Program-made: the position numbers and the translations under genes
Notes under the pieces: model-generated
Seen by the model: only the letters and a program-made list of their open reading frames with translations
What the model was told of the DNA's origin: nothing
Database searches by the model: none
NCBI GenBank assembly: GCA_022545875.1
Contig: JAKEIF010000220.1
Coordinates: 1 to 15,025 of the forward strand
Length of the DNA: 15,025 nt
Reading direction: 5' to 3'
Source of the DNA: Nitrososphaera sp.
GTDB lineage: Archaea > Thermoproteota > Nitrososphaeria > Nitrososphaerales > Nitrososphaeraceae
Shown: in pieces, positions 3,023 through 4,526 of the stretch
How the letters are laid out: the number at the start of each line of letters is the position of its first letter
How positions within the stretch are numbered: position 1 is the stretch's first letter

Positions 3023-3748
3023 TTGAAACTCTACTGCGTGGGCTGCGGGCCCGGAGACCCCGAGCTCGTCACCGTCAAAGCTGCCAACACCATAATGGCA
3101 GCTGAAGTTGTTTTTGCGCCTACTGCAAGGGAGGGCAAGCCTAGCATCGCACTTTCAGTAGTTGAGCGGTATGTAGACAAGTCTGCCAAAACTTTCAGCC
3201 TTGTATTTCCGATGGTAAAGGACAAAGAATCGCTAAAGGACTACTGGAGAAAGAACGCGCAGGAAATTGCCGACGCTGTAAGGACTGGCAAGAGAGTAGT
3301 CTACCTAACCGTAGGCGACCCTGCGCTCTATAGCACTTGGATCTATATCCACCGCGAACTCCAGAATAGCCACAAGGATATTGAAGTTGAAATTATTCCC
3401 GGCATTGCGTCAATGTTTGCCATTGCGGCAAGGGCCAAGGTCAGCCTAGCCGAAGGAGAGGAGACGCTTGCCATAGTCCCGGCCTGCTACGACATAGAGC
3501 GCGTAAGAAAGGCCTCAGAGGCATGCGACACTGTAATTTTCCTCAAAGACGGCCGATACTTTGACAGGACGATAGAGACCCTCGGGCTGTCGGGCTTTCC
3601 GAAAAACGCGCCGATCGCTATTGCGCAGGATGTCTCTGAGGAAAAAGAAATACTCGAAGTGAAAACCCTTTCAGAGTATCTCGGCAAAAAGGGACCCGCG
3701 GAAAAATACTTTTCAATAATGGTGGCGAAAAAAAATATCCGAGAGTAA
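3023..3748 (+). CDS. cobI/cbiL: Precorrin-2/cobalt-factor II C20-methyltransferase
   Basis: This enzyme transfers a methyl group from S-adenosylmethionine to C20 of precorrin-2 or cobalt-factor II in corrin ring synthesis. The 241-residue protein has the tetrapyrrole-methylase landmarks in order: N-terminal CVGCGPGDPELVT (residues 5-17), LTVGDPALYSTW (95-106) and EIIPGIASMFAIAA (123-136). The long segment between the first two, with FPMVKDKESL, is typical of CobI/CbiL, and the length fits the family. I chose TTG 3023 because it gives the classic MKLY(C/G)VG start; upstream TTG codons at 2993 and 2999 would add up to ten residues. The gene ends in MVAKKNIRE after an A8 run, and the next gene (cobM) begins in another frame across this stop. 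Confidence 0.9.
   Translation: MKLYCVGCGPGDPELVTVKAANTIMAAEVVFAPTAREGKPSIALSVVERYVDKSAKTFSLVFPMVKDKESLKDYWRKNAQEIADAVRTGKRVVYLTVGDPALYSTWIYIHRELQNSHKDIEVEIIPGIASMFAIAARAKVSLAEGEETLAIVPACYDIERVRKASEACDTVIFLKDGRYFDRTIETLGLSGFPKNAPIAIAQDVSEEKEILEVKTLSEYLGKKGPAEKYFSIMVAKKNIRE
3728..3735 (+). other. A8 homopolymer at the cobI/cobM junction (possible slippery site)
   Basis: Eight consecutive A bases lie inside the last codons of cobI. Reading through with seven A instead of eight bypasses the cobI stop at 3746 and continues straight into the cobM frame. The product would be a 500-residue CobI-CobM fusion with junction MVAKKISESKTVYFVG. With eight A, cobI stops and cobM has no standard start codon. 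Confidence 0.6.
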
Positions 3749-4526
3749 GACCGTCTATTTCGTAGGGTCCGGCCCCGGAGACCCCGAGCTTATCACGCTC
3801 AAGGCAAAGAGGCTCGTTGAAACTGCAGATGTCATAATTTACTCCGGCTCGCTCCTCAACCCACAGATCCTAAAATATGCAAGAAGGGACGCAGAGCTCT
3901 ACGACGCAGCTGTCATTGACAGGATAAAGATTTACGAGGTCTTGCGCGATACTGCAAAGCAGGGCAAGCTAGGGATAAGGTTCCATGATGGTGATCCTGC
4001 ACTTTTCAGCACAATCAGGGAGCAGATCGACCAACTCGAAGCAGAAGGAATACGCTGCCTAGTCGTGCCTGGCGTCACCGCGATTTTAGGCGCAGCTGCC
4101 GACCTAAAGCTAGAGCTCACGCTTCCTGGAGTGACTCAGTCGCTTATCATCACTAGGGCGGAATTCCGGACTCCCGTCCCTCCAAGGGAGTCAATTGCGG
4201 AGCTTGCCCGGCATGGCTGTACCATGGCGTTTTACCTCAGTGTCCACCTTGTCGGGGACGTGGTCGCCGAGCTCTTGAAGGGCGGCGCATACACTGACAA
4301 AACGCCTGCCGCAGTAGTCTACAGGGCTACCTGGGATGACGAGAAAGTAATCAAGGGCACGTTAGGCGACATTGAGAAAAAGACCAAGGAAGCGAAAATA
4401 ATCAAGACTGCTCTGATAATTGTAGGCGACGTTATCGCGCCGACAAAGTACGAGTATTCAAAAGTTTACGACGCAGCATTTACGCATGGTTATAGAAGAG
4501 CAGTAAAAAAAGAAGAAAAGGGGTAG
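3735..4526 (+). CDS. cobM/cbiF: Precorrin-4/cobalt-precorrin-4 C11-methyltransferase; start codon abnormal
   Basis: The protein methylates C11 of precorrin-4 or cobalt-precorrin-4 in cobalamin synthesis. Motifs in order are FVGSGPGDPELITLKAKRL, VIIYSGSLLNP, FHDGDPALFSTIREQ, VVPGVTAILGAAADL, ELTLPGVTQSLIITR, RTPVPPRES, PAAVVYRATWDDE, and ALIIVG near the end. All are typical of CobM/CbiF, and the length (about 263) is right. The frame is open from 3720, just after an in-frame TAA. It has no ATG, GTG or TTG before TTG 3942, which would remove the first 69 residues, including the SAM-binding GxGPGDP loop. I list ATA 3735 only as a nominal boundary. Possible explanations are a rare ATA start, slippage on the cobI A8 run (3728-3735) giving a fusion or a protein starting MVAKKISESK, or a one-base assembly error. 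Confidence 0.85.
   Translation: MSESKTVYFVGSGPGDPELITLKAKRLVETADVIIYSGSLLNPQILKYARRDAELYDAAVIDRIKIYEVLRDTAKQGKLGIRFHDGDPALFSTIREQIDQLEAEGIRCLVVPGVTAILGAAADLKLELTLPGVTQSLIITRAEFRTPVPPRESIAELARHGCTMAFYLSVHLVGDVVAELLKGGAYTDKTPAAVVYRATWDDEKVIKGTLGDIEKKTKEAKIIKTALIIVGDVIAPTKYEYSKVYDAAFTHGYRRAVKKEEKG

Follow-up and report, generated by a model that had tools for sequence, protein, structure and literature searches.

The locus described here raises the question of where a gene begins when its reading frame holds no standard start codon ahead of the first conserved motif. The window, that is, the whole stretch of DNA analyzed, is a complete contig of 15,025 bases (G000:C215) belonging to a MAG that is 72% complete and divided among 284 contigs. 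In the following, G000 denotes the window's own genome, from a soil archaeon, G011 a genus-mate, and P numbers the listed relative proteins. The family in question, the Nitrososphaeraceae, comprises ammonia-oxidizing archaea. The reading frame under study is that of cobM/cbiF, a gene of vitamin B12 synthesis encoding precorrin-4 C11-methyltransferase, on the forward strand. It opens at 3720, directly after a TAA at 3717-3719, with the codons TGG TGG CGA AAA AAA ATA TCC GAG AGT AAG. As the sequence-only reading had noted, and as the ORF reading bears out, the frame contains no ATG, GTG, or TTG until the TTG at 3942..3944 (forward strand). The gene caller placed the cobM start at this TTG, which yields an ORF of 194 amino acids (3942-4526); we judge that placement to be a mis-call.

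The protein translated from 3720 matches the TIGR01465 model (cobM_cbiF) with a score of 306.9 bits, above the curated cut-off of 259.65, and it is accordingly a member of the CobM/CbiF precorrin-4 C11-methyltransferases. The alignment covers profile positions 1-247 of 247. Since the match spans the entire model, a start at 3942 would drop the GSGPGDPE loop, in keeping with the earlier statement that the GxGPGDP loop is lost from the shorter product. From the upstream stop to this motif there is a single codon of the type ATA, ATT, ATC, or CTG, namely the ATA at 3735..3737 (forward strand), which is the start codon proposed here. Measured from this ATA, cobM extends over 3735..4526 (forward strand) and encodes 263 amino acids.

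The upstream gene is cobI/cbiL (3023..3748, forward strand), encoding precorrin-2 C20-methyltransferase, with a score of 220.4 bits against TIGR01467 (cut-off 163.25). Its start is probably the TTG at 3023, with 2993 also possible; several of the closest CobI proteins begin with MKLYCVGCG or LKLYCVGCG, and others begin a few residues later with VGCG or MGCG. The close relatives P0122 and P0131 are likewise listed with an initial leucine. The cobI stop codon, TAA at 3746-3748, lies within the cobM frame such that the two genes overlap by 14 nt (3735..3748, forward strand), and the third base of the cobM ATA is the first base of the cobI codon ATC (Ile). One further CobI relative, P0147, from an ENA source, is 416 amino acids long and contains two similar CobI-like stretches in tandem.

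A CobM match was observed in 81 of the 101 genomes searched, and the DNA of the cobI/cobM junction was read at 30 cut-out loci, consisting of the window and 29 relatives, all within the family of the window. In all 29 relatives cobM possesses a start of its own within the cobI overlap, ATG in 27 cases and GTG in two (G014 and G021). In 21 relatives with ATG and one with GTG the start lies exactly 30 nt before the GxGPGD motif, as does the window ATA; in the other seven the distance is 27-60 nt. The junction reads ..AAAAAATATCCGAG.. in the window and, for example, ..AAGAAAAATGCCAGAG.. in genus relatives, with ATA replacing ATG. The start site has thus changed by substitution within an unaltered layout, and no indel is seen in the comparison with the 29 relatives. 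The spacing between the end of the cobI stop codon and the CobM motif is 16 nt in the window and in 12 of the 29 relatives, 19-26 nt in 16, and 49 nt in one. At these family loci, the overlap of the stop and start regions is conserved, as in a translationally coupled pair. An overlapping ATG at the same place in a relative had been named beforehand as the sign of a local mutation; it was found, and it indicates a local change from ATG to ATA.

The protein sequences are in agreement with this placement. Where the window reads ISESKTV, the closest CobM proteins read MSES[NRK]TV or similar. Of the 120 CobM proteins among the matches listed, 114 begin 11-25 residues before GPGD, four are extended upstream, and two begin downstream. 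The listed P0120 begins with VGSGPGD, and further short CobM entries are P0244-P0247 and P0249, three of which are labeled as partial. In the window, therefore, no standard codon lies upstream of the conserved region, and an ATA occupies the homologous start site.

On the basis of these comparisons, cobM is best regarded as a separate gene that overlaps cobI by 14 nt and has a working ATA start at 3735-3737, a reading to which we assign a probability of roughly 0.84. An ATA start had been among the options listed by the sequence-only reading, and it is supported by the presence of ATA at the homologous start with the layout intact. The standard start would have been lost when the final G of a former ATG changed to A, with both frames left intact; in cobI, the same substitution would have changed a valine or alanine to isoleucine. 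The ATA would then be read by the normal initiator tRNA with an A.C mismatch at the third position. Initiation would be assisted by a GGTG sequence 10 nt upstream of the ATA, and ribosomes terminating on cobI inside the overlap may also help. We infer that initiation most likely takes place at the cobM ATA; its efficiency and the contributions made by the GGTG and by coupling are likewise inferred.

The GGTG (3721..3724, forward strand), a possible Shine-Dalgarno core, lies within the codons for the Met-Val-Ala of cobI. The 16S 3' tail of G011 ends in ..GGATCACCTCCT, the CACC of which is complementary to GGTG. All 12 genus loci retain the cobM GGTG, as do nine of 17 other family loci, with eight of these 17 lacking it; as part of the cobI coding sequence it is also under constraint. 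An initiator-like anticodon arm, GGGCTCATAACCC (CAU), which we take to be the mark of the initiator tRNA, has an exact match in 22 of 41 genomes, including G000 and G011; for the other genomes the count means no more than that no exact match occurs. An initiator tRNA with an altered anticodon was also considered and set aside, given that the CAU arm is found in both G000 and G011 such that no change is needed there.

The overlap provides a second means of following the start base, for the last base of the cobM start codon also opens a codon of cobI, and the CobI tail consequently reports it. Given the Asn codon AAT and the same layout, Val, Ala, or Asp at this place corresponds to G (ATG), and Ile or Thr to A (ATA). 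The CobI protein set consisted of 120 listed of 3,034 matched. Four of the 120 (P0122, P0125, P0126, and P0133; 89-93% identity), from JGI and ENA sources, have the window-like tail ..AKKNIRE. One more, P0145 (81% identity), ends in ..AKKNTRD, which, given the same layout, would imply a separate further ATA cobM start. On the CobI tree, the Ile-tailed proteins fall in three places among those with Val, with modest support.

Among the CobM proteins, P0242 and P0243 (97% identical, 194 amino acids) begin at the TTG mis-start of the window, and P0034 (90% identical) begins downstream at LKAK. That these three relatives were called truncated is expected if their start codon is non-standard. The source of P0242 and P0243 is given as "-", as for the window's own protein, and the two may not be independent of the window data. 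P0034 and the Ile-tailed P0133 probably reside on one contig, both showing a longest contig of 12,169. In the pairs P0127/P0006, P0134/P0008, and P0128/P0003, matched likewise and with Val or Ala tails, the CobM protein begins with Met at the usual place. Judging from the protein tails and the gene-caller truncations, the change from ATG to ATA seems to recur in other metagenomes. Within the genus, the pattern of a KKN tail followed by A was observed in two of 18 genomes, the window's own and G008, the latter having a shifted ATG; the ATA allele was not found in the other genus genomes examined (18 including the window's own).

The sequence-only reading had drawn attention to a run of eight A bases at 3728..3735 (forward strand), which was proposed to fuse or recode cobI and cobM. 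According to this explanation, slippage during transcription, or a +1 frameshift of the ribosome, at the run would give rise to a CobI-CobM fusion or to a CobM beginning at the ATG at 3719. Dropping one A does join the two frames arithmetically, and the run coincides with the loss of the ATG. Furthermore, the relatives that imply an ATA are known as proteins, so an A8 may occur in their genes. The junction comparison nevertheless speaks against it. Of what might have been met in close relatives, a normal start was present in 29 of 29, and both fusion and conservation of the A8 in none; the longest A run at their junctions is 4-7. A conserved slippery run joining the frames, as expected of programmed slippage or frameshifting, is thus absent from the 29 relatives read as DNA. 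Such runs are, in addition, common in G000, with 22 A or T runs of at least 8 in the 407 kb read (about one per 18 kb), two of them within the window; lysine AAA is common as well, with 50 AAA against 72 AAG codons in five window ORFs. The start position shared by the 114 listed CobM proteins also argues against a slippage product. Because cobI and cobM are separate genes, the stop distance is shared with 12 of the 29 relatives, and the change is a substitution rather than an indel, the proposed fusion is unsupported; we judge the run to be incidental and the explanation very improbable. Two related suggestions fail on the same evidence, a recent frameshift in a fused gene, since no fusion exists in the 29 relatives and the change is not an indel, and a homopolymer assembly indel, of which the junctions show no trace.

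About equally improbable is a cobM that was recently inactivated and is starting to decay, or that survives as a non-functional stub from the TTG at 3942. The standard start is indeed lost, and the G000 assembly contains no second copy of similar score. A second cobM copy was sought and rejected, the best other match among those listed having 76 bits and 29% identity. The full-length frame, however, is free of stop codons. Comparison of the CobM coding sequence with those of four relatives reveals 17-21 differences at second codon positions and 128-139 at third positions over 252-253 codons, by which measure cobM is under purifying selection. The implied ATA allele is present, moreover, in proteins that have diverged by 3-11% from those of the window. 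Least probable of all is an assembly or base error with a true G at 3737: although the MAG is fragmented and incomplete and the allele is confined to it among the genus genomes examined, the same base is implied by the tails of four CobI proteins of JGI and ENA origin, and gene callers shortened three of the CobM relatives.

A census of start codons was carried out with 64 contigs of G000 (407 kb, window included) and 1.6 Mb of G011. It provided 167 non-overlapping, 5'-closed orthologue pairs, among which some antisense shadow frames remain. In seven of the 167, at least one of the two genomes offers no standard start as far as 20 codons inside the conserved part. Two of the seven, GDE_C and aIF1A, are taken to be real genes, and both genomes lack a standard start in each. 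Four others look by eye like antisense shadow frames and were set aside; one of them, L129, has no standard codon in either genome. The seventh pair is a small gene with an ATG in G000 (L061:2534-2998); in its G011 copy, near 1459152, neither the first 20 aligned codons nor the frame ahead of them contain a standard start. In G000, both aIF1A and GDE_C have ATA at the start position with no standard codon back to the in-frame upstream stop.

GDE_C, an amylo-1,6-glucosidase gene, is located at L104:967-3651 on the forward strand (G000:C35; relatives L202-L211). Some match to it is present in 18 of 41 genomes, nearly full-length in 14, and the start was read in 12 of these 14. It is ATA in five of the 12 (G000, G011, G005, G017, and G004), ATG in six, and GTG in one. 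In each of the five ATA genomes, 1-5 codons, none of them standard, separate the in-frame stop from the ATA, and a GGTG lies exactly 8 nt before it.

The gene encoding aIF1A (PF01176) is located at L048:3844-4188 on the reverse strand (G000:C2; relatives L192-L201 and L212-L231), and matches to it occur in 33 family genomes; the comparison covers 25 Nitrososphaeraceae sequences from 22 of them. Nine of the 25 have ATA as the codon preceding the conserved GK[RK][KR]VL, and the other 16 have TTA. Seven other families in the order, each represented by one genome, have ATG (three), TTG (three), or ATC (one) there. Upstream of the first Gly codon, all 25 sequences share TA at bases -2 and -1, and the base preceding them varies. 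Over the 12 codons that follow, the pairwise differences number 679, 469, and 1824 at the first, second, and third codon positions, an excess at the third. Hardly any variation is seen at position -9, counted from the same Gly codon. These 25 sequences display, at the start of an initiation factor gene, a conserved non-standard codon.

In 16 of the 25 aIF1A sequences, including the TTA copy G014b, an in-frame stop lies upstream with no standard codon between. Of the others, five have an upstream stop together with a more distant TTG or GTG, and four have no stop within the fetched stretch, one of which (G009) contains an in-frame ATG and TTG. In total, a standard codon is found further upstream in six of the 25, and in five of these six there is a TTG at -15. 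For the best archaeal solved aIF1A chains, query residue 14 aligns to chain residue 6-7, which places the solved N-termini no more than a few residues away from the proposed start. A start at a downstream Met would remove conserved residues. The TTA start on aIF1A, suggested by conservation, is harder to accept than ATA, for it would form two mismatches with the initiator anticodon.

Given GDE_C and aIF1A, the cobM ATA is in line with ATA starts being used more widely across the family. A broader and tentative reading, whose chances we put at somewhat below even, is that start codons ending in A (ATA, TTA) are tolerated in the Nitrososphaeraceae, that a weak start has been fixed on aIF1A as a feedback device resembling that of infC/IF3, and that cobM and GDE_C, both of which toggle between ATG and ATA among relatives, would be read according to an aIF1A-dependent stringency. 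To our knowledge, aIF1A is not a homologue of IF3. The infC start, as excerpted from PMC5472188, is AUU in E. coli or AUC in Streptomyces, and IF3 represses its own synthesis through it. The likeness to this loop lies in a non-standard start kept by selection and in the fact that aIF1A is a factor acting in start-codon choice. The aIF1A case differs, however, in being archaeal and in employing AUA or UUA rather than AUU or AUC, and feedback on aIF1A would be by analogy; cobM, for its part, encodes no initiation factor.

With regard to coupling, termination-reinitiation at overlapping genes was shown in Haloferax volcanii in 2019, according to an excerpt of PMC6728339. As there, cobI and cobM are an overlapping pair on the same strand with a possible Shine-Dalgarno sequence inside the upstream gene; unlike the overlaps of 1 or 4 nt in that excerpt (PMC6728339), theirs is 14 nt, the restart codon is ATA, and the coupling is putative. 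The archaeal start codons named in the excerpted part of a review are AUG, GUG, and UUG (PMC7531240). The scheme proposed here resembles the standard one of that excerpt in being led by a Shine-Dalgarno sequence and in employing a CAU initiator tRNA, and differs from it in that ATA and TTA lie outside the three codons (PMC7531240). According to the available part of PMC6237735, aIF1 serves fidelity by acting against non-AUG starts; that of PMC11834397 mentions an ATG-to-ATA start mutation of nadA in an engineered Halobacterium strain. Among the matches listed from the open-licence PMC literature, no title or displayed abstract mentions a start at ATA or TTA, be it in Nitrososphaera or for aIF1A, which is weak evidence of absence.

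The ORF lister considers only ATG, GTG, and TTG, and the gene callers behind P0242, P0243, and P0034 were evidently limited to these codons too. With such callers, an archaeal gene that starts with ATA is truncated, as was cobM to 194 amino acids without its GSGPGDPE loop. If the ATA and TTA starts are real, the start-codon rules for the Nitrososphaeraceae will have to be revised, and aIF1A would be a candidate for an archaeal equivalent of the infC feedback, one that can be tested in a cultured species. Most surprising to a specialist would be family-wide use of ATA and TTA together with fixation on aIF1A, which would widen the known set of archaeal starts. In G011, aIF1 (SUI1), the second factor acting in start selection, occurs at two places, and the one that was read begins with an ordinary ATG.
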